Shown: positions 40,202-60,283 of the stretch, one piece after another | Numbering within the stretch: position 1 is the stretch's first letter | Layout of the letters: the number at the start of each line of letters is the position of its first letter | Translations under genes and position numbers: made by a program | Notes under the pieces: generated by a model | Database searches by the model: none | What the model was told of the DNA's origin: nothing | The model's input: only the letters and a program-made list of their open reading frames with translations | Assembly (NCBI RefSeq): GCF_024171405.1 | Contig: NZ_JALJZT010000002.1 | Location: 1,302,001-1,366,000, forward strand | Length of the DNA: 64,000 nt | Direction of reading: 5' to 3' | DNA from: Qipengyuania citrea | GTDB lineage: Bacteria; Pseudomonadota; Alphaproteobacteria; Sphingomonadales; Sphingomonadaceae

Positions 40202-41533
40202 TTAAGCGGTCGCAGGCCGCCGTGCGTAGAAGCCGAACACCGCGATTATCGCATAGCAGGATGCGGGCAACACAAGCGACAGCGCAAGGCTGCCCGTCAG
40301 GTCGGCGAGCGCGCCCGTGGCCAGCGGGACCACCGCCCCGCCGAAGATCGCCACATTGATGATCCCCGAACCGTCAGCCGCGCGGCTGCCCAACCGCTCG
40401 CAGGCAAGCGAGAAGATGGTCGGGAACATGATCGAATTCATCAACCCGATCGCCAGCAGGCTGTAGGCGGCCAGCGTGCCGCTGCTGTTGGTCGAGATCG
40501 CGATCAGCGTGATTGCGCCGATCGCCACCGCGGTCAGGATCAGGCCCGGGCTCACCATGCGCAGCAGCGCGGAGCCGATGAAGCGCCCGACCATCGCGCC
40601 GCCCCAATACAGGCTGACCATCCAGCCGACGATGTTTTCGGGTTGGCCGAGCACGTCGTCGAGCATCAGGTAATTGATGACGATCGAGCCGATCGCCACT
40701 TCGGCGCCGACATAGAGGAAGATCGACAGCGCGCCAAAGCCGAACCGCGGCCGCTTGAGCAGGTCGAAGCCCGCGAGCCCGCTCGAGGGTTCGTGCTTTT
40801 CGCCCTCCAGCCGGTTCCGGAACAGCCACACTGCGCCCGCCACCACGGTGATCGCGATCGCGATGCCGAGATAGGTCTTCACGATCATCGCCGATTCCGC
40901 GGTGCGATAGGCCGCCAGCGCGGCGCCTTCGAAATCTTCGGCGGAAACATCGGCCAGCGTGCCGAGGATCAGTCCCGCACCGACCAGCGGAAAGAGGAAG
41001 GTGCCGAAGGAATTGAATGCCTGCGCAAAAGTGAGGCGGCTGTGCGCGGTCTTCTGCGGGCCGAGCAGGCTGATCAGCGGATTGGCCACCACCTGCACGA
41101 TCACCACCCCGCTGGCGAGAATGAACAGCGCCAGCAGGAACAATGGATAGGTCGCAGTGGTGCTGGCGGGGATGAACAGCAGACAGCCCAGTGTCATCGT
41201 CAGCAGTCCCGCCACCGCGCCGCGCATATAGCCGATCCGCTTGACCAGCTTCGCGCCGGGAATGCCGATCACCAGATAGGCGGCGAAGAAGCAGAACTGG
41301 ACCAGCATCGCCTGCGTGTAATTGAGCGTGAACAGCTCTTTCAGCTTGGGGATCAGGACATCGTTGAGGCTGGTGATCCCGCCGAAGATGAAGAACAGCG
41401 CGAAGACGAAGGGCGGCAGGCTTGGCGCATGCACATGGCCCTCTGCCTCGTCACCCACGGGATCGCTTGAAGAATAATGCTTCGCGGCTTCCGCCGCGGC
41501 CCCCGTTGCCGTCACCACGTATCGTTCTCCCAT
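40202..41533 (-). CDS. FHS-type hexose:proton symporter (FucP/GluP-like)
   Basis: A 443-residue MFS carrier of the fucose/glucose/galactose (FHS) family: GGITSLNDVLIPKLKELF, FFAAYLVIGIPGAKLVKRIG, VVIVQVVANPLISLLGP and AQAFNSFGTFLFPL are diagnostic. It imports the monosaccharide released by the GH3 enzyme, probably glucose. A perfect LacI-type palindrome lies about 70 bases before the start, so it should be controlled with the TonB receptor. Confidence 0.92.
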   Translation of the reverse strand: MGERYVVTATGAAAEAAKHYSSSDPVGDEAEGHVHAPSLPPFVFALFFIFGGITSLNDVLIPKLKELFTLNYTQAMLVQFCFFAAYLVIGIPGAKLVKRIGYMRGAVAGLLTMTLGCLLFIPASTTATYPLFLLALFILASGVVIVQVVANPLISLLGPQKTAHSRLTFAQAFNSFGTFLFPLVGAGLILGTLADVSAEDFEGAALAAYRTAESAMIVKTYLGIAIAITVVAGAVWLFRNRLEGEKHEPSSGLAGFDLLKRPRFGFGALSIFLYVGAEVAIGSIVINYLMLDDVLGQPENIVGWMVSLYWGGAMVGRFIGSALLRMVSPGLILTAVAIGAITLIAISTNSSGTLAAYSLLAIGLMNSIMFPTIFSLACERLGSRAADGSGIINVAIFGGAVVPLATGALADLTGSLALSLVLPASCYAIIAVFGFYARRPATA

Positions 41534-41601
41534 TTCGCCGCCCGCATCCCACTGTAAGGTGCGGGCTAGCGCGGGCGGAAATTAGGAGCGCAGCGCTTTT
41601 C

Positions 41602-41615
41602 TGTCAACGTTGACA
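41602..41615. promoter_or_regulatory. Perfect LacI-type operator before the FHS transporter
   Basis: TGTCAACGTTGACA is fully palindromic, within CTTTTCTGTCAACGTTGACA. The same extended sequence recurs before the TonB receptor and GH3 genes, which defines a shared regulon. Confidence 0.85.
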
Positions 41616-41693
41616 AAAAATAGGCCCGAGTTGGTGGCGAGGCGATTTGCGCAAGGGCCTGCCGCCGCGCAGCAAGGGTTGAAAACCGTTTGA

Positions 41694-41742
41694 GACAGGC
41701 CCCGCGAAGCAGGCAAGTGCACTTCGCGTATCGGAGCCTGTC
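41694..41742. repeat. Nested inverted repeat upstream of the sensor kinase
   Basis: Outer arms GACAGGC/GCCTGTC (7 bp) enclose inner arms GCGAAG/CTTCGC (6 bp). The structure could be a terminator, a small RNA fold or a protein-binding site; the sequence does not say which. Confidence 0.4.
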
Positions 41743-41871
41743 CGAAGAACGATGGCCGAATAGATGGGCTGCGTGACGAACGTCCCGAATGGCGGCGATA
41801 TTCAGCGCCGCAGCCGCGCCCGTTTCTTAACGGCGTTGTGCCGCATGCAAGAATAAGCGAGAACCCGAGCG

Positions 41872-44800
41872 ATGTCGCTCTCGCTCAGAGGCTTGTTCAT
41901 CGCGCTGCCGATCGTTGCGCTGGTCATCGGTGCCATGGCCTGGAGCATCTATGTCGGCAGCATCGACGACGATCGCGCCAATGCGCTGCGCGAACTCGAC
42001 ATCGCCAATGCCGCCGCTGCCGATACGCTCCGCCGCGAGATCTCGCTGATCGCCGAGACCGAGGAGAAGGCGGTCGCCACCATGGCGCGCAAGCTGGAGC
42101 AGCGCAGTCCGACCACCATCGGCGATATCTTCGTCCCTGCGGCAGACGGAGCCTTCCATAGCCGCGACGATTTGTGGGACGGCCGCGCCTCCGCAGGAGC
42201 GATCCAGCTGCGCGGCATTGGCGGCTTCCTCGCCCCGCCCGAACCGGACGACGACCGCCGCGCGACCGTCCTCGCCGCCTTCGACACGCTGCGGCAGATG
42301 ACCAATGGCCTGCCGAGCGATGTCGAAAGCCTCTATTTCTTCTCGCCCGCCAACGACCTGCTGATCTACGCGCCGCAGCGCCCCGACGAATTGTCCTTCT
42401 ATCGCACAGCCCCGGCCGATTTCGATTTCCAGGATGCTGAATTCAGCCGGATTACCTCGCCGGCAGAAAATCCCGCCGGGATGCTGCGCTGCACCAGCCT
42501 GCAACGCCCGCTGTATGACGAGACGGGCGACAATTGGACCACCGGGTGCATGCTGCCCATCCGCGTCGATGATCGGCATGTCGGCGCCTGGGGTATCAGC
42601 ATCCCGCTGGACCAGTTTACCCGGCGGCTGACGCCCCCGCCCGAGGACGCCTTCACCATCATCGTCAGTCGGGACGGAAAGTTGATCCATCACTCGGGCG
42701 TAGCCGGGGACGACAGCCGGCGGCTCGAGGCGAATGTCGACCTCGCGACTTCGGAAGAGCCCCTCCTGCGCGCCATCTGGGATTATGTAAACGCGGGGAT
42801 CGACGACCAGACGGTCTTCGCGCAGCCGCTCGATGCCTATGTCTCGGCGCGCGAGTTGCAGGCGCCCGACTGGTACGTGCTGACCGTGCTGCCAGAACAG
42901 GCGTTGAGCGCGCGCGCATGGTCGCTGGCGCAGCGGGTCATCCTTATCGCGCTGACCGGGGCGCTTGCGCTCGGCCTGGTGCTGTCGGCGATCTTCCACC
43001 GGACCGTCGCCTCGCGGATCGCCCGGCTCGCGACGCGGATCGACCGGGTCTCGGCCACCGAGGGTGTGGCGCTGGATGCGGGGACCAGGGACGAGATCCG
43101 CCAGCTCGAGCATGCCTTCGAAAAGATGGAAGATCGGCTGGCCACGGCGCGCTCGCGCGAGCAGCATTCGTTCGACGTGCTGGTCAATGCGGCGGAACGC
43201 TATGCGATGGTGCTGTTCGACGACCAGGGGCAGCTGATCCGGGCGAGCAAGGGCGCGCTCGACCTGTTCGGCGAAAAGGAACTGGTCAAGCTGCTCAGCG
43301 AATGGGGCCTGTCGGCCGAGTCCGCGCCTGCGACCGGCCATCCGGCGGGGCCGGGCCCGCAACCGCGGATCATCGCGCGCAAGCTGGCCGACGGGCGCGA
43401 AGTCTGGCTCGAGGAAATCCTGATCTCGCTCGAGGATCATCTCGGCGCGCCCTTCGGAACGGCGTATATCGGGCATGACATTACCGAAAAGCACACCGCA
43501 CAGCGCGCGATAGAAGAAAACCTGCTCTATCTCGAGCTGGCGCACTCGAGCGCGCAGGCGGGGCATTTCGCACTCGATCCGCACACCATGGAACTGTCGC
43601 TTTCGGGCTGGCTGCGGGAAAAGCTGGGCGTTGAGACGCCAACCATCCCGCTGGCCGAGCTTGCCGCGCTGATCGATGAGAGCAAGCGCGACGAAACCAT
43701 GGCGGAAATCGCCGCGGCGATCGAAGCACGAACCGAATTTTCCTTCGAAACGCTGGCGATCGGTGCCGAGGGAGACCGTTTGCCGATCGTCGTGCGCGGG
43801 ACGGCGGTGTTCCAGGATGCCGACAATACCGAAGAGCTGGCTGGCTTCTACGGGATCGCACAGGATATCACCGAGCAGAAGAAAGCCGCCGAGGCGCTGT
43901 TGCGCGCGCGCGACGAGGCCCGCGCCGAAGCGCGATCCAAAACCGACATCCTCGCGGTCATCTCGCACGAAATCCGCACGCCGATTTCGGGTATTCTCGG
44001 ATTGATCGACCAGATCCGCCGCGAACGGTCCGAAAGTGAGCGCAGCCGCGCGCTGACGCTGGTGGAGGATTCGTCCGAAGCGCTGCTCAAGACGCTCGAT
44101 GCGACGCTCCAGCGGACCCGCTCCGAGCGCGAACAATCGGTCTCACAGGACGAGGAGTTCAGCCCCGCCGCGCTGGTCGAGCGCGTGGCCGAGTTGTTTC
44201 GCCCGCTGGCCCGCCGCAAGGGCCTCGCCATCGATGTGCTGGCGGGTTCCGAGGGCCGGGCGTGCGGCCAGCCGGCGCGTATCCAGCAGGTGCTCGCCAA
44301 CTTCGTTTCCAATGCGATCAAGTTTACACCGATCGGCAAGGTGACCCTCTCGTTCAACGCGCCCGAACCCGGGTCCGATCTCTGGACATTCTGCGTCGAG
44401 GACACGGGCGGCGGGATCGATCCCGAGCGGATGAAGACGATCTTCGAGCCATTCTCCGGCAGCGCGCCCGACACGCTCGGCCGGTCCTCCGGCAGCGGGC
44501 TGGGCCTGTCGATCACGCGCGATCTCGCCCAGCAGATGGGCGGCACGGTTGCGGCCGAAAGTTCGGCAAGCGGCGGGACGCGGATGACGCTGACGCTGCC
44601 CCTGCAGACCGTCGGGCCTGGCAAGGAACAAGCCCCCGCCCGCGGCACTATCGCGATCAGGCTGGCGCGCGCTTCGCTCGCCGTGCGCGTCGAAGTCATC
44701 GCGCATGCGGAGGGCTTCGCCGTTCTCGACCCGGCTTCGGACGATCCCGGGGCTACCGCCGATATCGTGGTCAGCGACGATGCGGAATTCGTCGCGCAAT

Positions 44801-44931
44801 GCGGTGCCGAATGGAGCATCCAGCTCGTCGAAGCGGCGGAGAGCGCGCGCGACGGCAAGCATATGGTGGCCAGCGAAGCGGATCTGCTCGACATGCTCCC
44901 CCGCATCCTCGACGAGGTCGCCGATGGATAA
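41872..44931 (+). CDS. Hybrid sensor histidine kinase with extracytoplasmic sensor and degenerate receiver
   Basis: A 1019-residue kinase. Transmembrane helices at about 8-28 and 355-377 flank a Cache-like periplasmic sensor. A HAMP-like linker, two PAS-like segments (about 440-550 and 560-670), a HisKA domain with phospho-His 699 (VISHEIRTP) and a HATPase domain follow (N box FVSNAIKFTP; G boxes EDTGGGIDP and SSGSGLGLSI). The last 100 residues look like a receiver fold but have lost the phospho-acceptor Asp and Lys pattern (pseudo-receiver). The stop overlaps the next kinase-like gene by eight bases. The ligand is unknown. It probably feeds a phosphorelay with the next protein, which carries the intact receiver and Hpt. 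Confidence 0.88.
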   Translation: MSLSLRGLFIALPIVALVIGAMAWSIYVGSIDDDRANALRELDIANAAAADTLRREISLIAETEEKAVATMARKLEQRSPTTIGDIFVPAADGAFHSRDDLWDGRASAGAIQLRGIGGFLAPPEPDDDRRATVLAAFDTLRQMTNGLPSDVESLYFFSPANDLLIYAPQRPDELSFYRTAPADFDFQDAEFSRITSPAENPAGMLRCTSLQRPLYDETGDNWTTGCMLPIRVDDRHVGAWGISIPLDQFTRRLTPPPEDAFTIIVSRDGKLIHHSGVAGDDSRRLEANVDLATSEEPLLRAIWDYVNAGIDDQTVFAQPLDAYVSARELQAPDWYVLTVLPEQALSARAWSLAQRVILIALTGALALGLVLSAIFHRTVASRIARLATRIDRVSATEGVALDAGTRDEIRQLEHAFEKMEDRLATARSREQHSFDVLVNAAERYAMVLFDDQGQLIRASKGALDLFGEKELVKLLSEWGLSAESAPATGHPAGPGPQPRIIARKLADGREVWLEEILISLEDHLGAPFGTAYIGHDITEKHTAQRAIEENLLYLELAHSSAQAGHFALDPHTMELSLSGWLREKLGVETPTIPLAELAALIDESKRDETMAEIAAAIEARTEFSFETLAIGAEGDRLPIVVRGTAVFQDADNTEELAGFYGIAQDITEQKKAAEALLRARDEARAEARSKTDILAVISHEIRTPISGILGLIDQIRRERSESERSRALTLVEDSSEALLKTLDATLQRTRSEREQSVSQDEEFSPAALVERVAELFRPLARRKGLAIDVLAGSEGRACGQPARIQQVLANFVSNAIKFTPIGKVTLSFNAPEPGSDLWTFCVEDTGGGIDPERMKTIFEPFSGSAPDTLGRSSGSGLGLSITRDLAQQMGGTVAAESSASGGTRMTLTLPLQTVGPGKEQAPARGTIAIRLARASLAVRVEVIAHAEGFAVLDPASDDPGATADIVVSDDAEFVAQCGAEWSIQLVEAAESARDGKHMVASEADLLDMLPRILDEVADG

Positions 44932-46585
44932 GATGGACGACATCCCCGCCGAGCGCCGCGCCGAGATCCTGGCCACGCGGCTGGAGCGTAGCGAACGCGC
45001 GCTAAGGGGTGCCGAAGCCGCGCTCGAAAAGCGGATGAAGGAGCTGTTTCGCGCCAATCAGGACCTCAGCCTGCGTCAGAGCGAACTGGCGCGAAAGCTC
45101 GAGATCGAAAGCGCGCTCCTGCTTGGCGCCCTGTCGACCATCCGGATGGCCACGCTGTATGGCGAACGCGAGCGCGGGTTCACCATGTCCGAAAGTGCCG
45201 GGCCGATCCTAGGGCTGGCCGATGGCGAGGAACCCACGATCGAGAAGCTCGCCGCGACGCTCCATCCGCTCGATCGCGACCGGATCATGCGTGTGGGGCT
45301 TGCGTTCTTCAGCGAGGCCGAGCCGGGGGTGGCGCATGCCTATGAACATCGCATCGTCCGGCAGGACACGGGGGAGACCCGCTGGCTCAGATGGTCGATC
45401 ACGCGCGAGACCGGCACCGAGGATCGTCCCGGCCATCTGATGGCGACGATGCGCGACATCACCGAGGAACGTCAGAACGAGCGCGGTGTGCGGGCGCTGC
45501 AATTGCGAGCCGAGCGAAGGGTGCGCGAGCTTGCGCACCTCCAGCTGGAGCTAGCCGGTGCGAAGGATCGGGTGGAAGAGGCGCTCAGCGCGCGCAACCG
45601 GTTCATTTCCGAAATGGCGCATGCCATTCGCACCCCGCTTGCGGCGTTGAGCGGCGGGCTCGAATTGCTGCGCTCGAAGGTCCGCGAGGGCGGCGAGAAA
45701 GATCTGTCGGTCGCGCGCGAGGCAGCGGAGCAGCTCGGCGAACTCGCCTCCCGGCTGATCGAGGAAGCGGCCTCGGATGGCGAGGCGGAACCGGTCGCCT
45801 ATGCCAGCGGGGTCGGCACGCCCACACCGGAAACCGCATCGGCGCTGCCCGACCAGCCGCGCATCCTGCTGGCCGAGGATACCGAGAGCAATCGCTATGT
45901 CGCCGAGCGCATGCTCGCCGATCTGGGCTGCCTCGTCACCTCGGTAGAAAACGGCGCCGCCGCAGTCGAGGCGATCAGGCGCCAGAGTTTCGATCTCGTC
46001 CTGATGGATGTGATGATGCCGATCATGAATGGCGAGCAGGCCACGCAGGCGATCCGCGGGCTCAGCGGGCCGGCCGCACGCACCCCGATCATCGGAGTGA
46101 CCGCGCATAGCCTGCAGTCGGAGCGCGAGCGTCTGCTGTCGGCCGGGATGACCGCCTGCATGGCGAAGCCGGTCAAGAAGGAAGCGCTTGAAACCGCGAT
46201 CCGCACCGCGCTGATCTCGGGCCGCGACGTTCGCCAGAACCAGGCGCGGTTCGATCACGACCTCTTCCGCCGGACCTTCACCGATCTGCCCGACGCCTAT
46301 CGCGATCGGATGCGCGATGCCGCGAAGAAGGACATCACCAAATATGCGGGCGAAGTGCTCACCGCGGTCGAGGCCGATGACGAGGAGGACCTGTCCCGCG
46401 CGGCGCATGCGCTGACCGGGGTATCGCTCAATATCGGGGCGGTCGGGATCGTCGAAGAGCTTACGCATTACCGCGAGGCGCGCGCGCTAGGCGAGGCGTC
46501 GATCGAAGCCTTCCGCGAAGCGGTCGCCGCCTGCCTCCTGGCCGTCGACGACCTCTACGAAGCGCTGATCGCGGGGGATAAGTAG
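44924..46585 (+). CDS. PAS-HisKA-receiver-Hpt protein lacking an ATPase domain
   Basis: A 553-residue phosphorelay protein. An N-terminal coiled coil (about 10-65) is followed by a PAS domain (about 75-185), a HisKA dimerisation helix with His 233 (MAHAIRTPLA), a receiver (about 295-415) with Asp 362 (LVLMDVMMP) and Lys in MAKPVKK, and an Hpt domain with His 495 (AAHALTGVS). There is no HATPase_c domain between HisKA and receiver: only about 60 residues separate them. It therefore cannot autophosphorylate and must receive phosphate from another kinase, most simply the overlapping upstream gene product. The ATG in the 8-bp overlap was chosen; an ATG three codons later is possible. Confidence 0.88.
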   Translation: MDKMDDIPAERRAEILATRLERSERALRGAEAALEKRMKELFRANQDLSLRQSELARKLEIESALLLGALSTIRMATLYGERERGFTMSESAGPILGLADGEEPTIEKLAATLHPLDRDRIMRVGLAFFSEAEPGVAHAYEHRIVRQDTGETRWLRWSITRETGTEDRPGHLMATMRDITEERQNERGVRALQLRAERRVRELAHLQLELAGAKDRVEEALSARNRFISEMAHAIRTPLAALSGGLELLRSKVREGGEKDLSVAREAAEQLGELASRLIEEAASDGEAEPVAYASGVGTPTPETASALPDQPRILLAEDTESNRYVAERMLADLGCLVTSVENGAAAVEAIRRQSFDLVLMDVMMPIMNGEQATQAIRGLSGPAARTPIIGVTAHSLQSERERLLSAGMTACMAKPVKKEALETAIRTALISGRDVRQNQARFDHDLFRRTFTDLPDAYRDRMRDAAKKDITKYAGEVLTAVEADDEEDLSRAAHALTGVSLNIGAVGIVEELTHYREARALGEASIEAFREAVAACLLAVDDLYEALIAGDK

Positions 46586-46737: not shown

Positions 46738-46796
46738 TTTCGCAATTTGCGGCAGTAGTCATGCAATTTGCAAGTCGCATCCTCGCAAATTGCGAA
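46738..46796 (+). promoter_or_regulatory. Triple activator-site array for sigma54 promoter 1
   Basis: Three palindromes, CGCAATTTGCG (46741-46751), TGCAATTTGCA (46762-46772) and TCGCAAATTGCGA (46783-46795), have centres 21 and 22 bases apart, so they lie on one face of the helix. They sit 60, 82 and 103 bases before the -24 GG. This is the expected place for enhancer sites of an NtrC-type activator. Confidence 0.8.
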
Positions 46797-46846
46797 ACGC
46801 TACTTGAGCGAAGCTCCAGAACCGCGGAACTGCGTCGTTTTTAGGT

Positions 46847-46863
46847 TTGGCACGGACCTTGAA
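46847..46863 (+). promoter_or_regulatory. Sigma54 (-24/-12) promoter of the glycosyltransferase operon
   Basis: TTGGCACGGACCTTGAA matches TGGCAC-N5-TTGCW except for one base in the -12 element. The start site is expected near 46873. Confidence 0.75.
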
Positions 46864-47126
46864 TACGTCTTGGTAACCATATGCCGAGGCCCCCATCCCT
46901 TCTTTTCGCCATTCCCTTCACCCGTTCGCCGCCTCGCAGACCAGCCACGGCGTCTCCGCGCGCAATCCGTGCGTATCGAAGTCACGCGGCGATCTGCTGC
47001 GCGGCATTCGGGAAACGCTCGCCGGGTACCTGCTGAGCGCAGCCGTCGCCGCACTCGCGGCCAGCGCCGTCCGGGCGCGCGCGCCCGGCGCGATTGTCGC
47101 CTGATCCAACACCAAGGAAACCAGCC

Positions 47127-48113
47127 ATGACCTCCCCCCGCATGTCTGTCGTGATGCCCGTCTCCAATGTCGAGGCCTATATCGCAGAAGCCATTGAGTC
47201 GGTCCTCGGCCAGACCTTCGAGGACTTCGAACTGATCGTCGTCGGCGACGGTGGGCAGGACGGGTCGATGGATCTGGCGCGCAGCTTCGACGATCCGCGT
47301 ATCCGCATCGTTTCGCAGGAAAATCGCGGCCTCGCCGGCGCGCGCAATACCGGCATCGCCGAAACGCAGGCGCCCTATATCGCGCTGCTGGATCCCGATG
47401 ACCGCTGGCACGAGGACAAGCTGAAGCTGCACTTCGACCACCTGCAAGCAAACCCGCATATCGGGGTGAGCTATGCCGGCTCGCGGATGATCGACGAGCG
47501 CGGCGCGGTCATCTCGGCTGCGATGCGGCCCAAGCTGACCGATGTCGCCGCCGGCGACATTCTGTGCCGCAATCCGATCGGCAATTGCAGCGCGCCGGTC
47601 CTGCGCCGGACAGCGCTCGACCGCGCGGCATTTCCCCACCCGCAGGAGCGGAACCGGGCCTGCTGGTTCGACGAAAGCTTCCGCCAGTCGGAAGATATCG
47701 AACTGTGGGTGCGTCTCGCTTCGCTGCATGGCGTCAGCTTCGAAGGCATCGAAGGGCTGCTGACCGATTGCCGGATCATCGGCGGCGCGCTTTCCGCCAA
47801 TGTCGTCAAGCAGTACCTCAGCTGGTCGCGCATGATCGATATCGCGCGTGACAATGACCCCGAGCTGGTCGCCAGGCACGGCGATGCGGCACGCGCCTAC
47901 CAGCTGCGCTACCTTGCGCGTCGGTCGGTCCAGCTCGGCAATGCGGATCTGGCCAACGATCTGATCAGCCGCGCCGCCAGCCTCGCCCCGCGAATCTTTC
48001 TCGAGGAACCGGTCAAGTCGACGGTGACCTGGGGCGCTATCAAGCTCGCCCGGCTGACCGGCCCCGAACGCTTCCGCCGCCTCGCGCGCCCCTATCTCAA
48101 GGCGACGGCATGA
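47127..48113 (+). CDS. Family 2 glycosyltransferase
   Basis: A 328-residue GT-A glycosyltransferase. The opening MSVVMPVSNVEAYIAEAIES, the acceptor loop SVLGQTFEDFEL, the DxD-like LDPDDRW (about 83-89) and the catalytic-base region SEDIELWVR are typical. It adds a nucleotide-sugar-derived residue to an unknown polysaccharide or lipid. AAGGA precedes the ATG by eight bases. The stop overlaps the next glycosyltransferase gene by four bases. Placed under sigma54 promoter 1, it probably contributes to a surface or holdfast polysaccharide (inference). Confidence 0.92.
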   Translation: MTSPRMSVVMPVSNVEAYIAEAIESVLGQTFEDFELIVVGDGGQDGSMDLARSFDDPRIRIVSQENRGLAGARNTGIAETQAPYIALLDPDDRWHEDKLKLHFDHLQANPHIGVSYAGSRMIDERGAVISAAMRPKLTDVAAGDILCRNPIGNCSAPVLRRTALDRAAFPHPQERNRACWFDESFRQSEDIELWVRLASLHGVSFEGIEGLLTDCRIIGGALSANVVKQYLSWSRMIDIARDNDPELVARHGDAARAYQLRYLARRSVQLGNADLANDLISRAASLAPRIFLEEPVKSTVTWGAIKLARLTGPERFRRLARPYLKATA

Positions 48114-49141
48114 TCCGGATTACCCATCTCCTCGACGATGTCGGCACGGGCGGGGTCGCCCGCGCGCTATCGCTGTTCGACGACCCGCGCATGATGCGCG
48201 AGGCCGAGTCGCGAACCATCCGCATGGGCCGCGGACCGGCCGGCGCCGTGCGGCTCGATAGCGAGCTCATCGTCATCCATGTGCCGCCCTCATGGGGCCG
48301 GCTGCCCTATCTGGCGGCGCTCAGGCTCAAGAACCCGCATGCCCGGATTATTCAGGTCGAATATTCCTACACTCGCGCTTTCGAAGCGGAGGCGGTGTCC
48401 TCCCCGGGGCGGTTCCGCACGCTGCTGCAGACTGCCGCACGGCCGGTCGATGAAGTGATTGCCATGTCGGGCGCGCAGCGCCGGTGGCTTGCCGAGGCAG
48501 GCGTTCCTTCTAGAAAGCTGCACACGATCCATCCGTGGAGCGGCCGCGAAGATCTGTACAAGGTTCCCGATCTCGAGCCGCCCGGCGGCCCGCTTCGCCT
48601 GCTCGCCTATGGGCGGCTGGCCCCGGAGAAGAACTTCGCCGCACTGATCGAAGCCATGGGCTCTTTCCGTGCCGACGAGGTCACGCTGACGCTGGCCGGT
48701 TTGGGCCCCGAAGTGAAACGGCTGGTGGAACTCGCCAGTGAGCGTGACAACGTCCGGCTGCTACCTGCCACCAATGCGATCGACGCTCGGCTTGCGGCCT
48801 GTTCCGCGGTGGTCGTTCCGTCGCGCTACGAAGCCTCTGGCCTGGTCGCAACCGAAGCCCGCATGGCGGCCCGCCCGGTGCTGGTCGCCGATATCGACGG
48901 CCTGCCCGAACAGGTTCGCAGCGGCGGCGGGGTTGCCGCACCAATGCGCAATGCCGCCGAGATCGCCTGCGCAATCATCCGGCTTAAAGGTGCGGACTTG
49001 CCTACGATGGGCCGGGCCGCACGCGCCGGGGTCATGCAGCAGCACGATGAGATCATCACGGGTTGGCAGGCGGTTTTACGCCGTGCCGAACCCCTTCGAA
49101 AGAAAGCCGGTGTGCAACCGGCCATGGCTGCCAGCGCCTGA
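48110..49141 (+). CDS. Family 4 glycosyltransferase
   Basis: A 343-residue GT-B glycosyltransferase of the GT4 type. The C-terminal donor-binding half has LLAYGRLAPEKNFAALIEAM and VVVPSRYEASGLVATEAR with the two conserved Glu. The N-terminal domain is short. The start overlaps the GT2 stop (ATGA). Both enzymes probably act in the same polysaccharide pathway. The sugar and acceptor are unknown. Confidence 0.92.
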   Translation: MIRITHLLDDVGTGGVARALSLFDDPRMMREAESRTIRMGRGPAGAVRLDSELIVIHVPPSWGRLPYLAALRLKNPHARIIQVEYSYTRAFEAEAVSSPGRFRTLLQTAARPVDEVIAMSGAQRRWLAEAGVPSRKLHTIHPWSGREDLYKVPDLEPPGGPLRLLAYGRLAPEKNFAALIEAMGSFRADEVTLTLAGLGPEVKRLVELASERDNVRLLPATNAIDARLAACSAVVVPSRYEASGLVATEARMAARPVLVADIDGLPEQVRSGGGVAAPMRNAAEIACAIIRLKGADLPTMGRAARAGVMQQHDEIITGWQAVLRRAEPLRKKAGVQPAMAASA

Positions 49142-49382
49142 ATTGCGACCCCAGGCGCCGCAGGGCCGCCTCGTTCCCTCCGCTATGCGGATGGGGGCGG
49201 GGCGGTTTCCCTTTGGGGGCGACGCAAAAGGCCATGCGCGGCGCGCAGCCGGCTGAGATGGGCGCGGGGCTCGTCGAACAAGGGTGGCCTGGAACCGGCA
49301 CCCCGCGCCGGTCACGGCAAGATACTGATAATCTGACAGCTTCTCCGACGGGCTACAGTTTCGGCGGTTGGCACGATGCGCG

Positions 49383-49440
49383 TTTCGCAATCTGCAGTGC
49401 GTGCCTGCCGCATTTTGCGAAGCTGGAGGTGCGGAATGCA
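49383..49440 (+). promoter_or_regulatory. Activator-site array for sigma54 promoter 2
   Basis: Sites at CGCAATCTGCA (49386-49396), CGCATTTTGCG (49409-49419) and a weak TGCGGAATGCA (49430-49440) have centres 23 and 21 bases apart. Their distances to the -24 GG are 105, 82 and 61, almost the same as in array 1. Confidence 0.7.
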
Positions 49441-49493
49441 GTCGGCCGCCGAGGCGCTGCCATTAAACCGTTGTTTCTGAATCTTTTTAGATT

Positions 49494-49510
49494 TTGGCAC
49501 GGGTCGTGAA
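49494..49510 (+). promoter_or_regulatory. Sigma54 (-24/-12) promoter of the hfa-like operon
   Basis: TTGGCACGGGTCGTGAA shares TTGGCACGG and the closing TGAA with promoter 1. The -12 element is GTGAA instead of TTGCA. The start is expected near 49522. Confidence 0.7.
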
Positions 49511-49546
49511 AAGCAGAGTCCCGAACACTTCGAATGGGGACAACAC

Positions 49547-49879
49547 ATGCTACTTCTAGTTCTCGCAAACGCAGCAGCTCTGGCAGGCGAGCAGCCATCC
49601 GACACCGGCCGCCCGCAGAGCGCGCCGATGTCCTTCGAGCGCGATGCCAACCACAACCGCGTCATCATCTCGGGCTCCGCTTCACAGGGCAGCAGGCTGA
49701 TGGCCAATCCCGCTCGGCGGCACCGCCAGGATAGCCGTGCGATTGCGATCGCCAACATGGTCAACGTCACGGTTCACGGCAGTAACAACACGGTTGTCGT
49801 GAACGCGCGTCAAGCCAGCTCGGGCAATCAGAAGGCCGTTGTCGCGGCCAGCCCTTCCTCGCTCGGACAGGGAGGGTAA
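49547..49879 (+). CDS. hfaA: HfaA-like small exported adhesion protein
   Basis: A 110-residue protein with a very short N-terminal hydrophobic signal (MLLLVLANAAALAG). A curlin-like stretch near the end reads MVNVTVHGSNNTVVVNARQ, like the NVxVxGSxNTVVVNxxQ pattern of holdfast-anchor HfaA and curli minor subunits. GGGGA sits six bases before the ATG. In Caulobacter HfaA, HfaB and HfaD anchor the holdfast polysaccharide to the outer membrane, and the same order (small amyloid-like protein, CsgG-like lipoprotein, repeat protein) is seen here. The name rests on context and this short motif, so confidence is moderate. Confidence 0.65.
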   Translation: MLLLVLANAAALAGEQPSDTGRPQSAPMSFERDANHNRVIISGSASQGSRLMANPARRHRQDSRAIAIANMVNVTVHGSNNTVVVNARQASSGNQKAVVAASPSSLGQGG

Positions 49880-49883
49880 GGTT

Positions 49884-50765
49884 ATGATCGGGGGAAAGAA
49901 ACTCGTTCATCGGGCTATCGCTCTGGCAGCGACCGGCCTGACCCTGGGGGGATGCGCAAGCTTTGCCGACACGCCGCCCCAGCGGATCACGCCCCTCAGC
50001 GGCGCGCGCGTTACCGATGGTGACACCGCCTATTCGGGCATTCTGCGCTGCATGGCTTCGCACACGAGCGGTATCGCACAGCCGCGGATCGCAGTGGGGG
50101 AAGTTGCCGATTACACCGGTCGGCTTGACGGGCTGAACGGCTCGGTCGCTCCCCAGGGGGCAGCGCTCATGGTGATTTCCGCTCTGGCCAAGGCAGGCTT
50201 CCCGCTTGCCGAGAGACTGGACCTGCGGATTGCCTTGCAGGAACTCGATTATGCCAACAGCAAGCTGCTCGGCCCTGACGGCCAGCCGACCGATGACTAT
50301 CGGCGGATCTATTCGGGGTCGATTGCGGAAGCCGATCTGATCGTCCTGGGCGGCATCACCGAACTGGATTTCAACATCCGCAGCGATGTGGCCGAGGCCT
50401 CGATCGGGCCGGTGGGCGGCGGAGCCCGTTCCTATGTCATGTCGGTCGGTGTGGACCTGCGCCTGATCGATGCGCGCAGTCTGCGTGTCGTCAACGTAGC
50501 CAGCCTGCAGAAACAGATCCGCGGCCGCGAAATCCGCGCCGGAATCTTCGAATTCATCGGCAACACCACCCTGGATCTCGGCGTCGGACGCCGCCGCCAG
50601 GAGCCGGTGCATGGAGCGATCAGGGCGATCATCGAAAAGGCGGTGATTGACCTGATGCGCGAACAAAGGGGCGCCGACGCGCCCCGCTGTCCAACCAACG
50701 TTCAATCGGTGAGCTACGCCGTAGAACAAGCGGCGAGCCCGCAAACTCAATTTGAAGGAGACTGA
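49884..50765 (+). CDS. hfaB: HfaB/CsgG-family outer-membrane secretion lipoprotein
   Basis: A 293-residue lipoprotein. The signal ends with the lipobox LGGC (Cys about residue 24). The CsgG-like domain follows (IAVGEVADYTGRLD, MVISALAKAGFPLAERLDL, VLGGITELDFN, LRLIDARSLRVVN), matching curli-type secretion channels. It should form the outer-membrane pore that exports the neighbouring HfaA- and HfaD-like proteins. GGGAGG precedes the ATG, four bases after the hfaA-like stop; the reading frame extending upstream lies within that gene and is rejected. Confidence 0.8.
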   Translation: MIGGKKLVHRAIALAATGLTLGGCASFADTPPQRITPLSGARVTDGDTAYSGILRCMASHTSGIAQPRIAVGEVADYTGRLDGLNGSVAPQGAALMVISALAKAGFPLAERLDLRIALQELDYANSKLLGPDGQPTDDYRRIYSGSIAEADLIVLGGITELDFNIRSDVAEASIGPVGGGARSYVMSVGVDLRLIDARSLRVVNVASLQKQIRGREIRAGIFEFIGNTTLDLGVGRRRQEPVHGAIRAIIEKAVIDLMREQRGADAPRCPTNVQSVSYAVEQAASPQTQFEGD

Positions 50766-50767
50766 AA

Positions 50768-51796
50768 ATGACGAAGTTTTACCTGATGACTACGGCGGGC
50801 CTGCTCGCCATGGCCGCAGCCCCTGCAACCGCACAGGTCGCGCTGCCGACCGAACCCGACCCGCTGGTTGCAGTCGATGTCGATCTTTCGACGGGCGCGC
50901 TCCTCGGTGACCAGTCGGTTCTCGATGCCGTCGTCGAAGTTGGCGGCGGCGAGCTGCTCGACGTCTATCTCGGCCTGCTCGAAGGCTCGACCGGCGGGAC
51001 CAACTTCCAGCTGCTCGACGGATCCATCCTGACTGCCCTCGAGACGCTTGGCGGCCCGGAACTGGTCAGCGCGTTCGAAAGTCTCGTCGGCACCACGGCC
51101 CGGACCGCCGATTATGTCACGGACCAGTCCAATTCCGCCACTCAGGATTCAATCCTCAGCGCTACGGCAAACTCGGTTGCCAGCGTGAATGCAACCGCGG
51201 CGAGCATCGGCAACAGCTATGCGCTCGATGCGGCTGCGAATGTCGTGGCGGATCTGGCCCAGATCAATCAAGGCTACGGCACCAGTTCGGTTGCGACCGT
51301 CTATAACGCCGTCAGCGAAGTGACCGAAACCGCCGCTTCGATCGGGAACACCGGATCGTTCAACGCCGACGGCGCGCTCCTCGACCTGTCGATCGATCAG
51401 AACAATCTTGGCGGTCAGACTTCGAATCTGGTTACCATCCAGAACATGGTCGCCGAGGCCACGAGCACGGCAGCATCGATCGGCAATTCCCTGGCCGTGG
51501 AAATGCCCGGCGGCAGCAAGCTGACCGCAACCCAGAGCAATTCCGGTACGATGATCGCCGATCTGACGGGCATGATCGCATCTACCGTCGATTACACCGC
51601 GACCGCGGCGTCGATCGGCAACAGCTACGCCCTGACCAGCCTCGACAGCGGTATTGCCGGCAATGTTTCCAGCTCGCTGAACCAGTGGAACGGCGCCGGT
51701 CAGATCGCCAAGGTCACTGCCAACATTGCGGCCAGCACGAACGCCGCCGCGACCGCGGCCGCTATCGGCAACAGTGTCAGCATCAACGTCGAATAG
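50768..51796 (+). CDS. hfaD: HfaD-like exported repeat protein (probable amyloid or anchor)
   Basis: A 342-residue protein with a Sec signal (residues 1-22, ending TAQ). From about 115 it carries five repeats of 45-50 residues. Each has a QxN element (Gln 120, 165, 211, 256, 306) and a TAASIGNS-like element (143, 188, 234, 279, 329). Gln/Asn at fixed spacing is typical of curli-like amyloid strands. AAGGAG lies seven bases before the ATG, two bases after the CsgG-like gene. It is probably the fibre or outer-surface anchor exported through the HfaB-like pore. The amyloid character is inferred from the repeat pattern. Confidence 0.65.
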   Translation: MTKFYLMTTAGLLAMAAAPATAQVALPTEPDPLVAVDVDLSTGALLGDQSVLDAVVEVGGGELLDVYLGLLEGSTGGTNFQLLDGSILTALETLGGPELVSAFESLVGTTARTADYVTDQSNSATQDSILSATANSVASVNATAASIGNSYALDAAANVVADLAQINQGYGTSSVATVYNAVSEVTETAASIGNTGSFNADGALLDLSIDQNNLGGQTSNLVTIQNMVAEATSTAASIGNSLAVEMPGGSKLTATQSNSGTMIADLTGMIASTVDYTATAASIGNSYALTSLDSGIAGNVSSSLNQWNGAGQIAKVTANIAASTNAAATAAAIGNSVSINVE

Positions 51797-51806
51797 CTTC
51801 CCCCCG

Positions 51807-51840
51807 GGTGGCCCGCACTGCAAGCGCAGTGCGGGCCACC
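51807..51840 (+). terminator. Strong hairpin terminator of the hfa-like operon
   Basis: Perfect 15-bp GC-rich arms (GGTGGCCCGCACTGC and its complement) close an AAGC loop ten bases after the HfaD-like stop. There is no clear T-run, but the stem is very stable. Confidence 0.8.
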
Positions 51841-51970
51841 AAACTTCATGGATTACCCAGTCAGCCAAGAGGCTGTCATGAACTCGGCACCCGCCACAGC
51901 GCAAAGCGCCGCGAGCATCAAGCGATGCGCTGCATTGCGAACCCTCCAAAACAGCCAGATCGCCAAAGCA

Positions 51971-52028
51971 TCGTTGCAATATGCGAGAGTGACTTTTGCA
52001 AATTGCAAGGAAATGCTGCATATTACGG
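51971..52028 (+). promoter_or_regulatory. Activator-site array for sigma54 promoter 3
   Basis: Sites TGCAATATGCG (51975-51985), TGCAAATTGCA (51997-52007, the most perfect copy) and TGCATATTACG (52017-52027) have centres 22 and 20 bases apart. They lie 92, 70 and 50 bases before the -24 GG, one helical turn closer than in arrays 1 and 2. Confidence 0.75.
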
Positions 52029-52069
52029 AAATCATGACGCCGTTATCGCCCGATACGCCTGTCCTCATT

Positions 52070-52086
52070 CCGGCACAGCCTTTGCA
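52070..52086 (+). promoter_or_regulatory. Sigma54 (-24/-12) promoter of the H-NOX/regulator operon
   Basis: CCGGCACAGCCTTTGCA has GGCAC and a perfect TTGCA at the right spacing. The start is expected near 52098, about 29 bases before the H-NOX start. Confidence 0.75.
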
Positions 52087-52126: not shown

Positions 52127-52660
52127 GTGAAAGGCATTATCTTTTCGGAACTGGTCGGTTTTCTCGACCGCGCCGGCGGGCCCGAACTCGCCGAGAAAGT
52201 GTTGGCCGATGCCGACCTGCCGCATGGCGGCGCCTATACGCGTGTCGGCCAGTATCCATGGCAGGAAGCCGTGCGCGTCGTCGAAGCCGCCTCGCGCGCG
52301 ACGGGGGCCGAATTCGCCGATCTGTGCCACCAGTTCGGCGCGTATCTCTTCGAGCGCTTCACCGTGCTCTATGGCGATATCGTCGGCCGCTATGCCAGCG
52401 CAGAGGAACTGCTGTCGCATGTCGGCGATCACATCCACGAAGAGGTCAGGATCCTCTATCCCGATGCGCAGCCGCCGCAGGTTACCGTCCATGACGAAGG
52501 CGACGTATTGCGCGTGGAATATGCCTCGCACCGCCCCTTTGCGCATATCGCCCATGGGCTGGTGGCCGGCGCGATGACCCATTTCGGCGACCACCGCGCG
52601 CTCAACTGGGTCGGCGCAAATGACGAAGGCTCGCGCGCCGAATTCGCACTTACGGGATAA
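52127..52660 (+). CDS. H-NOX haem-based nitric-oxide sensor
   Basis: A 177-residue haem NO/O2-binding domain protein. It opens MKGIIFSELVGFL, the standard H-NOX start, from a GTG with GGAG six bases upstream; the longer frame upstream covers the promoter and is rejected. The proximal haem ligand is His 104 in the segment HIHEEVRILYP, and the haem-propionate motif YxSxR is intact (Tyr 132, Ser 134, Arg 136). Stand-alone bacterial H-NOX proteins bind NO and regulate a partner kinase or cyclase. Its neighbour two bases downstream is a sigma54-dependent response regulator, and the same palindromes precede surface-polysaccharide and adhesin operons. A role in NO-controlled attachment is therefore likely but inferred. 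Confidence 0.9.
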   Translation: MKGIIFSELVGFLDRAGGPELAEKVLADADLPHGGAYTRVGQYPWQEAVRVVEAASRATGAEFADLCHQFGAYLFERFTVLYGDIVGRYASAEELLSHVGDHIHEEVRILYPDAQPPQVTVHDEGDVLRVEYASHRPFAHIAHGLVAGAMTHFGDHRALNWVGANDEGSRAEFALTG

Positions 52661-52662
52661 AT

Positions 52663-54078
52663 ATGTCGAAACCCGCCATTCTGATCATCGAGGACAGCGC
52701 CTCGCTCGCCCTCGGCTTTGCCGCCCAATTGGAAGAGGCAGGGTACGAAGTGGCGCTTGCCGCCACGCTTGCCGAAGCGCGCGATGCGCTGGCGAACACG
52801 CGGTATTCGGCTGCGCTGCTCGACCTGCAGCTGCCCGACGGGGATGGTCTCTCGCTGCTCGAGCAACGCGACGAGACGTCACCCGCCTTTGTCGTCATCA
52901 CTGCCGATGGTTCGCTGTCGCGCGCGATCGCCGCTATGCGGCTCGGGGCCTTCGATTTCCTCGTCAAGCCGGTTGCGGGGACCCGCCTGCTGGCGACGAT
53001 CCGGGCCGCGGTCGAACAATCGAAAACCGCGCCGGCCAAGGCCGTCATCAAGCCGGTCGAGGACGGCACACGCTTCCATGGCTTTATCGGCCAGTCGCCC
53101 GTCATGCGCGCAGTGTTCCGCACGATCGAACAGGTCGCCGATTCGCGCGCGAGCGTCTTCGTCACCGGCGAGAGTGGGACGGGCAAGGAAGTGACTGCCG
53201 AGGCGCTGCACGCGGAATCGCGCCGCCGGAACAAGGCTTTCGTCGCGATCAATTGCGGTGCGATTCCGGAAAATCTGCTCGAGAGCGAACTGTTCGGCCA
53301 TGTCAAAGGCGCCTTCACCGGAGCGATCGAGAACCGGATCGGCGCTGCCAAGGCCGCCGATGGCGGAACGCTGTTCCTCGACGAGATTTGCGAGATGGAG
53401 CTCAAGCTCCAGGTCAAATTGCTGCGGTTCATCCAGACCGGGATGATCCAGCGGGTCGGATCGGCCCAGGCCGAACCGGTCGATGTCCGCATCGTCTGCG
53501 CCACCAATCGCGATCCCTTGCGCGAAGTCGCCGAGGGGCGCTTTCGCGAAGACCTGCTCTATCGCCTCAATGTCATCCCGATCCACCTACCGCCGTTACG
53601 GGAGCGCGGCGACGACATCGTTCTGCTGGCGGACCGGCTGACCGAATCGATCGCCCAGGAAGAACGCCGCCCCGGACTCCAACTCAGCGCGGCGAGCCGG
53701 GCGAAAATTCGCGCCCACTCCTGGCCTGGCAATGTGCGCGAGCTGCAGAACGCCCTGCGGCGGTCGGTGGTGATCGGCGAAGGCGACGAGATCGACATCT
53801 CGGTGCCGACGGGTCATTCTGCAATCCCGGAGGCCTTGCCTCCTGCCTCGTTTGAGCCGGCCTCTTCCGAGTTTGCGAGCACGCCCGCGCAGCCATCGGT
53901 CTCCCCGTCGACCGAGCTGGCCTTCGATGGCATGACTTTGGCCCAGATCGAGCACCTCGCGATCGAGGCGGCACTGAAGCGACACGGCGGCAATGTAACC
54001 CGCGCCGCCAAGGAATTGGCGGTCAATCCCTCAACCATCTACCGGAAACTGGAAAAGCAGCGCACCCAAACCGGTTAG
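52663..54078 (+). CDS. Sigma54-dependent response regulator (NtrC family)
   Basis: A 471-residue activator. Receiver at 1-115 with phospho-acceptor Asp 54 and Lys 102, sigma54-interacting AAA+ domain at about 140-375 with Walker A GESGTGKE (169-176), GAFTGA (216-221) and Walker B GGTLFLDE (234-241), then a Fis-type helix-turn-helix at about 425-465 (GNVTRAAKELAVNPSTIYRK). It lies two bases after the H-NOX gene. It is the obvious candidate to bind the TTGCAAwTTGCAA-like arrays at the three sigma54 promoters nearby, including its own. Phosphate could come from the Hpt protein encoded about 8 kb upstream (inference). Confidence 0.95.
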   Translation: MSKPAILIIEDSASLALGFAAQLEEAGYEVALAATLAEARDALANTRYSAALLDLQLPDGDGLSLLEQRDETSPAFVVITADGSLSRAIAAMRLGAFDFLVKPVAGTRLLATIRAAVEQSKTAPAKAVIKPVEDGTRFHGFIGQSPVMRAVFRTIEQVADSRASVFVTGESGTGKEVTAEALHAESRRRNKAFVAINCGAIPENLLESELFGHVKGAFTGAIENRIGAAKAADGGTLFLDEICEMELKLQVKLLRFIQTGMIQRVGSAQAEPVDVRIVCATNRDPLREVAEGRFREDLLYRLNVIPIHLPPLRERGDDIVLLADRLTESIAQEERRPGLQLSAASRAKIRAHSWPGNVRELQNALRRSVVIGEGDEIDISVPTGHSAIPEALPPASFEPASSEFASTPAQPSVSPSTELAFDGMTLAQIEHLAIEAALKRHGGNVTRAAKELAVNPSTIYRKLEKQRTQTG

Positions 54079-57835: not shown

Positions 57836-60283
57836 TCAGAACTCGCCCGCCACGCCGACCCGCGCGGCGGTATTCTTGCCGCCGCTGTAGGAAACGCCCA
57901 TCGTGACCGCGAGCGGCGTGTCCGAATTGACCCGCGCCGCCACCGATGCGCCCAGGCCCAGCTCTCCGCGATAGACCGAGGCGTTGGCCGCATAGCTGAC
58001 CCGGCCCACTTCGGAGGGCATCGGCGCCGGGGTCAGCGCCACCGCTGCGGCGATCCCGCGGTTGGTCTCGCGCCGCTCGACGGCGGCCAGGTCGAACAGC
58101 GTATCGACCCGCCCTTCGAGCGAACCGATCCGCCCGGCCGTGCTTTGCAGCAAGCCGATATCGAGCGTGCTGACGCCCAAATTGCCCGCGGCATCGGTGG
58201 TCACCAGCGACACCGGCCCGGACTGGCGGGCAGCGCTTTCGGCCGAATTCAGCCCGGCGAAAGTATAGGTGCTGTCGCTGCCGCCCAAGGCCACCTGTCC
58301 GTCCATCGTCGCAACCGCGCCATTGCCGATCGCGACCGCGCCCGCGCCATTGGCGGAGGCTGCGTTGCCCAGCGCGATCGCGCCATTGCCCACCGCGCTG
58401 TTCAGATTGCCGATGGCAACCGCGCCGGTGCCGGTCGCGGTGTTGTCCGCGCCCAGCGCCACCGCGCCGGTCCCCGTCGCCACATTGGGATCACCGATGG
58501 CCACGGCGCCATTGCCCGACGCGATATTGCCCGCCCCGATCGAGACCGCCTGGCCGTCGATGGCCTGGGCATTCGACCCGATCGCCACCGACCGGTCGCC
58601 GCTGGCGAGGCTGCCGGGACCCATGGCAAGCGCATCGGTGCCGGTGGCGGACGCCGCCGGGCCGGTGCTGTTGCTGTCGAAGAACGCCAGCTCGGCACTG
58701 TTCGCCTCGGCGCGGGCCAGGGCGGTATTGGCATCGGATTGCGCCTGCTGCGCCTCGGTGCGCGCCAGATTGGCGGTTGCCTGCGCATCGACCGCATTCT
58801 CGAAGGCGGCATCGGCCCGCGCCTGGGCCGCTGTCGCACCCGAACCCGCTTCGTCGGCAGCCCGCTGGGCCGCGCGGGCTTCGGCGCGCGCCGTGTCGGC
58901 AATGCTCTGCGCGGTGGCCGCATTGTCGAAAGCGGCATCGGCGCGATCCTGCGCGGTTGCCGCTTCGGCGCGGGCGGTGTCGGCCGTGGTCTGCGCCGTC
59001 GCGGCATTGGCCAGGGCGGTGTTTGCAGTTCCCTGCGCGGCAGCGGCGTTGGTAAGCGCGGTATCGGCAGTCGCCTGCGCGGTCGCCGCATTGGCCAGCG
59101 CTGTATCCGCCGTCCCTTGCGCGGTAGCGGCATTGGTGAGCGCCGTATCGGCAGTCGTCTGCGCCGTCGCGGCACTCGTCACCGCGCTATCGGCAGTCGC
59201 CTGTGCCGTGTCAGCAGTCGTTTGGGCGGTCGCGGCATCGGCAAGTGCCGTATTCCCCGTGGCCTGGGCCGAAGCGGCAGCGGCCACCGCGCTGTCGGCG
59301 GTTGCTTGCGCCTAAGCAGCAGCGGTCACCGCGCTGTCGGCGGTCGCCTGCGCCGCTTCCGCCGCAGTCTGCGCGGTCGCGGCATCCGCGAGCGCGGCAT
59401 CCCCGGTAGCCTGGGCAGCCGCCGCATTGGTCACTGCGGTATTCGCCGTCGTCTGTGCTGCGGCGGCCGCTGTCGCCACGCTGTCGAGCTGGCCCTTGTT
59501 GACCGCATCGGTCGCCTGCGTTCCGGCGGCAAGGTTGACGATCTGCCGCTCGCTGCCGGTGCTTCCGACAGAGACCGTATCGGCCCGGTTGGCGACCGAG
59601 CCCCTGCCCAGCGCAACCGCATTGGCCGCACTGGCCTGCGCGCGCGCGCCCACGGCAATGGCGCTGGTAAAATCGGCCAGCGCATCATTCCCGATTGCGA
59701 TGGCATCATTGGCCGACGCCAACGCGCCAGCACGATCGCTGTCGGTACCATCGGTCCCGATCGCGATCGAGCGGTCACCGCTCGCTGTCGCAAAGTTGCC
59801 GGTGGCGGTGCTGTACTTGCCGCTCGCTGTCGCAAAGGCGCCGGTGGCGGTGCTGTACTCGCCGCTGGCCGAGCTGTCCCCCCCGGTCGCAGTGCTGTAG
59901 TAACCGCTGGCGCTGCTGTACGCTCCGGTGGCGGTGCTACTTGTATCACCTGCAGCGCTATAGGCACCTGTGGCGGTGGCGCCATCTCTACCATTGGCGG
60001 TAGCGAAAACGCCCGTAGCGGTGCTGTCCAAACCCGTAGCGGCACTCCGGTTTCCCGTGGCGGTGCTACCCGCTTCGGTCGCCGTCGCGTCAACGCCGCA
60101 GGCGAGAGAGGACAGGCCTTCGGACGATGCGTCGCCGTCATCGTCGGTGGCCGTATCGATGGTGCCATTGTCGTTCCTGTCGAGAAAACAGGTTTCGGCC
60201 ATGGCCGGACTTGAGATGGCGATCGCGCCGACGCTGGTCGCGACGAACAGGCTGCGCCGAAGCGCCTTTGTTGAAATAGACAT
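57836..60283 (-). pseudogene. Trimeric autotransporter adhesin with one in-frame stop
   Basis: The whole frame covers 815 codons but codon 324 is TAG (59312-59314); reading continues in the same frame on both sides. The first part has a signal peptide (to about residue 28, ending AMA) and a head rich in YadA-like repeats (TATGxYSxA, AIGxDAxA). The part after the stop is a long Ala/Thr coiled-coil stalk with repeats like AATAQTTADTA, then a second head (AVAIGNxxxA), and ends in a YadA-type trimeric membrane anchor (final GVAGEF). A Ser or Thr codon is expected at the stop (TCG to TAG). Without readthrough the product lacks its anchor. GGGAGGGGG precedes the ATG. It could also be a sequencing error. 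Confidence 0.85.

Follow-up and report, generated by a model that had tools for sequence, protein, structure and literature searches.

A LuxO/SypG-like, H-NOX-linked sigma54 regulon with phased palindromic boxes appears to control surface-attachment genes in Qipengyuania citrea

In a 64,000-nucleotide stretch of the Qipengyuania citrea genome (C2:1302001-1366000, hereafter the window, a 64-kb part of a 3.2-Mb genome), three sigma54 promoters, called P1, P2 and P3 here, are each preceded by an array of three palindromic boxes, and one activator, whose gene adjoins that of an H-NOX haem sensor of nitric oxide (NO) and O2, appears to switch from them three surface-attachment and regulator gene sets. 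We consider it probable, at roughly four chances in five, that they make up an H-NOX-linked, LuxO/SypG-like sigma54 attachment regulon in which one activator serves all three promoters through helically phased boxes. The control code appears to be close to that of vibrios for quorum sensing and biofilms. As far as can be judged from sequence, the finding of the initial annotation, which had put three promoters with triple palindromes under one activator, is real and its inference sound, and the box array that divergent promoters share in the relatives is unusual.

The three -24/-12 elements lie on the plus strand, P1 (TTGGCACGGACCTTGAA, 46847..46863) 5' of two glycosyltransferase genes, P2 (TTGGCACGGGTCGTGAA, 49494..49510) 5' of hfaABD-like genes and P3 (CCGGCACAGCCTTTGCA, 52070..52086) 5' of the H-NOX and regulator genes; the positions first given for them, 46847, 49494 and 52070, mark where each 17-mer starts. 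Counted from the first G of the GG (46849, 49496 and 52072), the boxes stand 103/82/60 bp upstream at P1, 105/82/61 bp at P2 and 92/70/50 bp at P3, so that the distances reported earlier are confirmed. The boxes have no assigned strand, and their mismatches were counted against the motif TYGCAAWTTGCRA. Those of P1 are TCGCAATTTGCGG (46740..46752, centre 46746, 1 mismatch), ATGCAATTTGCAA (46761..46773, centre 46767, 1 mismatch) and TCGCAAATTGCGA (46783..46795, centre 46789, 0 mismatches); those of P2 are TCGCAATCTGCAG (49385..49397, centre 49391, 2 mismatches), CCGCATTTTGCGA (49408..49420, centre 49414, 2 mismatches) and TGCGGAATGCA (49429..49441, centre 49435); and those of P3 are TTGCAATATGCGA (51974..51986, centre 51980, 1 mismatch), TTGCAAATTGCAA (51996..52008, centre 52002, 0 mismatches) and CTGCATATTACGG (52016..52028, centre 52022). 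All nine palindromes announced at the outset are at their places, but the third box of P2 and that of P3 are weak, having more than 3 mismatches each and being placed by reading. The core GGTGCGGAATGC of P2 box 3 is identical in all three hfa-bearing genomes (this one, G317 and G336), and P3 box 3 is identical in G317 and differs at two positions in G336. The operator of LuxO in Vibrio is TTGCAWWWTGCAA (PMC10162802). Most boxes depart from it by C/G variants in the second position and in the last but one; perfect TTGCAAATTGCAA occurs in P3 box 2 only, and TCGC or GCGA variants occur in most other boxes. P1 and P2 have TGAA, not TGCA, as their -12, and a TTGAA -12 is found again at export- and flippase-side promoters of relatives. 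A DNA fold of P1 shows only a possible pairing of box 1 with box 3.

A configuration was defined as a -24/-12 element with at most 3 mismatches and at least two boxes with at most 2 mismatches 40-125 bp above it. Exactly three, namely P1, P2 and P3, are present in the window, and resampling it 60 times with a first-order Markov model gave none. In a genome scan anchored on the pattern TTGC, 48-78 bases, GGCACRNNNNKTG, 20 match rows corresponded to 18 distinct sites, and a box with at most 3 mismatches was present upstream at P1, P2 and P3 only. The strict motif (at most 1 mismatch) was met at 12 places in the genome, and these strict-motif scans did not pick up P2. Seven of the 12 places lie outside these promoters, as would be expected if the palindromes were products of chance or a dispersed repeat instead of control elements. 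However, the other five all fall in P1 and P3, no resample reproduced the configuration, and the arrangement is found again in relatives, so the probability left to this explanation is negligible. Elsewhere in this genome (G000:C2:2797752-2798989; L093, L094), a pair of good, box-free sigma54 elements faces outward in opposite directions, with about 1.1 kb between them.

The same three promoters were recovered by profiles trained on relatives only, R1 on 16 H-NOX-face sites and R2 on 15 export- and flippase-face sites. They were searched in ten genomes, some of which had donated training sites, while the genome studied here had given none. In it, P3 was matched by R1 at E 7e-16, P1 by R2 at E 4.9e-12 and by R1 at E 1.5e-9, and P2 by R2 at E 7.7e-7 and by R1 at E 8.3e-4. 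Among the best 150 of 540 R1 candidates and the best 150 of 335 R2 candidates, nothing besides P1, P2 and P3 was found at E<0.01, and the next-best match, at E 0.017, covered the promoter part only. In two H-NOX-free genomes of the genus, G078 and G239, R1 had no match at E<=1 and R2 none under 0.02. Across 60 genus genomes, R2 sites at E<=0.001 occurred in 12; in 11 of these they lie at the H-NOX/regulator locus, and in the twelfth, G324, the promoter is present and the boxes are absent. The box sites examined in the genus all belong to the H-NOX/regulator locus, which, with the restriction of the relatives-only profiles to P1-P3 at E<0.01, upholds the earlier proposal of a single regulon. 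Besides, G180 has two extra box-plus-sigma54 sites (L249 4397-4528 and L250 4522-4658) adjoining genes whose products, judged by eye, look exported (Big_9/cadherin/Ig-like domains are present in one of them), and in G243 an extra divergent box array (L251 2470-2596) lies 3' of the regulator and adjoins a PAP2-family gene.

The regulator gene (52663..54078, plus strand) begins 3 bases past the end of the H-NOX gene. Its product was assigned through Pfam, NCBIfam, structure match and helix-turn-helix (HTH) residues as a LuxO/SypG-like sigma54 response regulator of REC-AAA-HTH build, with the REC domain, an AAA domain whose GAFTGA is intact and a Fis-type HTH, that is, all features sought in a sigma54 activator. 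The genome has one rpoN match (E 5e-68), and this and the kept GAFTGA and HTH agree with the autoregulated single regulon first proposed. The LuxO model ranks first in NCBIfam with 503.7 bits, the second reaching 390.5, and the best solved-structure match is LuxO 5ep0 (E 1.6e-112). Eleven HTH residues are required for DNA binding by V. cholerae LuxO (PMC11407668); ten are identical here and the remaining one is changed from I to V. The box palindrome in turn resembles the LuxO operator TTGCAWWWTGCAA and sits upstream of sigma54 promoters. The best reading of the regulator is LuxO/SypG-like, with LuxO compared by sequence and SypG by description only, and the earlier label 'NtrC-type' can be sharpened accordingly.

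Could P1-P3 be served by some other sigma54 activator encoded in this genome instead of the linked regulator? There are seven strong sigma54-activator domains in the genome, the linked regulator included, which leaves candidates for such a role. Three of the six others could be scored and keep 4, 6 and 3 of the 11 LuxO recognition residues, most being absent, and the remaining three were unscorable. Moreover, the box sites of the genus stand at the H-NOX/regulator locus in 11/11 genomes having them, and the H-NOX-free G078 and G239 are without R1 sites, which together make this explanation very improbable. It may also be supposed that the regulator acts mainly as a repressor at the boxes and is relieved on phosphorylation, like HnoC of Shewanella, which also belongs to an H-NOX network and derepresses its regulon when phosphorylated (review PMC8738867). 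However, boxes about 50-105 bp above the -24 are in an enhancer position and not over the promoter, GAFTGA is intact, and the arrays accompany sigma54 elements in 45/53 loci of relatives; we hold repression to be quite unlikely, and continue with the linked regulator as activator.

The relatives supply much of this evidence. H-NOX is present in 46/298 family genomes, and 20 of these loci were examined. Both glycosyltransferases lie between the kinase region and H-NOX in 16 of them, and a full-length regulator match adjoins H-NOX in 18, the exceptions being L060 and L074. The gene content was read in L056 and L065, and obtained by tblastn in the congeners L293-L297 and G345. In the relatives' locus, the gene of an initiating transferase is reversed and lies opposite the flippase; likewise reversed, and opposite H-NOX, are genes for export, chain length and a polymerase-like protein. 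In L296 the first block of the locus is inverted. In L056 the export protein passes Poly_export, the chain-length protein matches below cut-offs only, and the polymerase is labelled from its position, with no family match. Both divergent gaps often bear box arrays and sigma54 elements on both strands, and the congener arrays flank an exopolysaccharide locus. By gene content and boxes this is, in the relatives, a candidate for a syp-type polysaccharide locus that the activator may drive, of which the window retains two glycosyltransferases only. A second sample of 62 named H-NOX loci, partly overlapping the first 20, has the regulator adjoining H-NOX in 53 (two titled only Alphaproteobacteria, the rest with Sphingomonadales names). 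Among these 53, an H-NOX-facing promoter with boxes was found in 45, an opposite-facing one in 41 and both in 40. A further 49 configurations occur in 1,100,537 bases of the relatives' loci, 42 of them 8.3-9.3 kb upstream, which is the position of the transferase/flippase gap in the loci read. The regulator frames of L058, L074 and L185 look broken or truncated, as does the H-NOX frame of L074.

The distances of the boxes follow the DNA helix. Over 354 box distances from 135 promoters in 62 loci, a periodicity of 10.8 bp was found (R 0.53), and at 10.9 bp R is 0.527; when whole clusters were jittered by at most 5 bp, R never exceeded 0.21 in 5000 trials. The significance is overstated in this way because promoters of related genomes are not independent. 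The spacing from box to box is mostly 19-23 bp. On the H-NOX face the distances are often about 50/70/91, also 60/82/104, and on the opposite face often about 61/83/104, so the one-turn shift of the third set noticed at first corresponds to the difference between the two faces in relatives. Conservation of phasing in related genomes, anticipated in the initial annotation, thus holds statistically, with a period of about 10.8 bp, but two promoters, P1 of G317 and P2 of G336, deviate from it.

Downstream of P1 are the genes of a family 2 glycosyltransferase (GT2; 47127..48113, plus strand), whose best match is the second GT2 of the relatives' locus, and a family 4 glycosyltransferase (48110..49141, plus strand), which also has its match there. 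About 250 bp (46864-47126) separate P1 from the glycosyltransferase start, where the relatives have the flippase and the first GT2 gene. P2 is followed on the plus strand by genes for HfaA-like (49547..49879; NF037934 37.5 bits, cut-off 50), HfaB-like, CsgG-family (listed as 49839..50765, a start near 49884 being likelier by eye; PF03783 72.5 bits, NF037935 237.3 bits, cut-off 300) and HfaD-like (50768..51796; NF037936 31 bits, cut-off 100) proteins. None of the three reaches its NCBIfam curated cut-off, and the order A-B-D with a CsgG-family B is present; the 'curli-like' of the former description can be narrowed to hfaABD-like. Within the best 8000 candidates by shared words, nine HfaD homologs were found, with a function for none.

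Whether P2 truly belongs with the others is the point on which the hfa genes depend. P2 could be decayed or fortuitous, with P1 and P3 real and hfaABD outside the regulon, an alternative that otherwise overlaps the reading preferred here: its boxes and profile scores are the weakest of the three, and no box-plus-promoter was seen at the seven HfaB loci with strong matches in other family genomes (a second G085 copy left out), where L096 shows one lone palindrome with 2 mismatches. Since those seven loci are without it, control by boxes is not a general feature of hfa genes. Nevertheless, a model whose training sites did not include P2 found it at E 7.7e-7, and P2 is retained in all three of the 60 genus genomes having a strong HfaB and this hfa set, namely the present one, G317 (99%) and G336 (95%), in which P1, P2 and P3 are all kept. 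We judge exclusion of hfaABD unlikely and retain P2 in the regulon. The promoter most similar to P1 is that of the flippase in L056 (z 8.2); of three L056 promoters compared with P3, the H-NOX one agrees best (z 4.7); and P2 has P1 as its nearest match (z 6.0). No hfa match was seen at six congener polysaccharide loci (L056, L293-L297); Poly_export has two matches in the present genome, and at E 1e-4 neither of them resembles the export protein of L056. This species and one close relative lack the export genes at the locus, where they have hfaABD-like holdfast-anchor genes under the same control. We infer that the export genes were lost from the locus and hfaABD recruited under a promoter of export/flippase type, in either order. 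The sequence above P3 was inspected by eye for a relic of a divergent export promoter, and we do not claim one. Farther away (57836-60283, minus strand), two adjacent open reading frames have repeated A-I-G-N-like motifs resembling, by eye, a trimeric autotransporter head.

Several points weigh against the regulon proposed. P2 is the weakest promoter: its -12 is GTGAA, two of its boxes have 2 mismatches apiece and the third is poor. In the same-species G317, P1 has distances of 97/75/60, its upper two boxes being 6-7 bp nearer and about half a turn off, and the box distances of P2 in G336 are 108/85. At the thresholds used the configuration was missed in 8/53 loci (L142, L153, L158, L160, L165, L168, L178, L179). 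It was found in 0/9 H-NOX loci without an adjacent regulator, a weak control in that 7 or 8 of them are distant taxa and in one (L138) the contig end is too near; H-NOX absence was directly seen in only two box-free genus genomes, G078 and G239. Weak further sites in the present genome may be missed because 150 of 540 (R1) and 150 of 335 (R2) candidates were scored. Finally, the regulator falls under the curated cut-off of the LuxO model NF041946 (503.7 versus 800 bits).

Upstream of the glycosyltransferases, a sensor histidine kinase (41872..44931, plus strand; Pfam HisKA and HATPase_c, with HAMP and PAS below cut-offs) is followed by a relay protein (44924..46585, plus strand) in which HisKA and REC exceed their cut-offs, Hpt (20.7 versus 24.6 bits) and PAS stay below theirs, and no HATPase_c was found by Pfam; a congener copy of it in L057 again has HisKA and REC without HATPase_c. 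The kinases seem to be outside the regulon because no box with at most 3 mismatches was found in 41301-41912 above the kinase gene. The H-NOX protein (52127..52660, plus strand; PF07700 93.5 bits) has the HNOB domain, haem histidine and YxSxR motif, and H102, H104 and Y132-x-S134-x-R136 are invariant in 15/15 aligned sequences. A literature search found nothing joining Erythrobacter and H-NOX, which does not prove absence, subscription journals being mostly outside its reach.

From these parts the following scheme may be drawn. The sensor kinase (41872-44931) and the REC-Hpt relay (44924-46585) would phosphorylate the activator (52663-54078), with H-NOX (52127-52660) supplying an NO input. The phosphorylated activator would then bind the phased palindromic boxes as dimers, and three boxes two helical turns apart would fit three dimers, equal to one hexamer. 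Through DNA looping the activator would open the three sigma54 promoters, from which the two glycosyltransferases (P1), an hfaABD-like surface anchor (P2) and H-NOX together with the activator (P3) would be expressed. P3 lies upstream of the activator's own gene and would therefore provide feedback, presumably positive. Our guess, by analogy with HnoX acting on HahK in Vibrio fischeri, is that NO lowers activator phosphorylation and attachment-gene expression. More tentatively, the phased three-dimer enhancer might nucleate one hexamer that fires two divergent sigma54 promoters simultaneously, and might represent an ancestral, modular, NO-linked attachment switch of Sphingomonadales, an idea to which we give a little less than even odds. 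We are equally hesitant in proposing the surface programmes that different lineages couple to that switch, which could be polysaccharide export, the hfaABD-like genes here and exported cadherin/Ig-like proteins in G180.

The finding would place an attachment circuit of LuxO/SypG-like kind, linked to H-NOX and with an operator near that of Vibrio, in an order of Alphaproteobacteria. It offers a testable link between NO and attachment in marine sphingomonads, and it is a good system for the effects of enhancer number and phase on sigma54 activation because of its many related arrays, a spacing that follows the helix and two natural exceptions.

Regarding known systems, Caulobacter HfaABD, which anchors the holdfast, an adhesive polysaccharide (PMC6707917), shares with the present genes the A-B-D order and family resemblance; the three proteins here are under the NCBIfam cut-offs, nothing seen here points to a stalk or a holdfast, and no comparable control was seen for the Caulobacter genes in the part of that source available. 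The Vibrio LuxO regulon of Qrr RNAs resembles ours in its operator TTGCAWWWTGCAA and sigma54 dependence, and H-NOX/HqsK can feed LuxU there; in both V. harveyi and V. parahaemolyticus, a kinase carries the effect of H-NOX to LuxU (PMC8738867). Unlike it, the targets here are protein-coding operons (no search for Qrr-type genes was made), there are three boxes versus the two described for LuxO (PMC11407668), and the regulator is below the LuxO model cut-off. Another near system is the SypG regulon of V. fischeri with HnoX, HahK and SypF, where HnoX inhibits HahK, and HahK in turn acts on SypG by way of LuxU or the Hpt of SypF (PMC12369376). SypG is likewise a sigma54 activator whose operator may overlap that of LuxO, and in the Syp system H-NOX also works via a hybrid kinase and an Hpt, with polysaccharide synthesis and export under control. 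The present circuit differs from it in being alphaproteobacterial, with H-NOX adjoining the activator gene and not the kinase gene, in box arrays that are common to divergent promoters in the relatives, and in the hfaABD-like target of this lineage.

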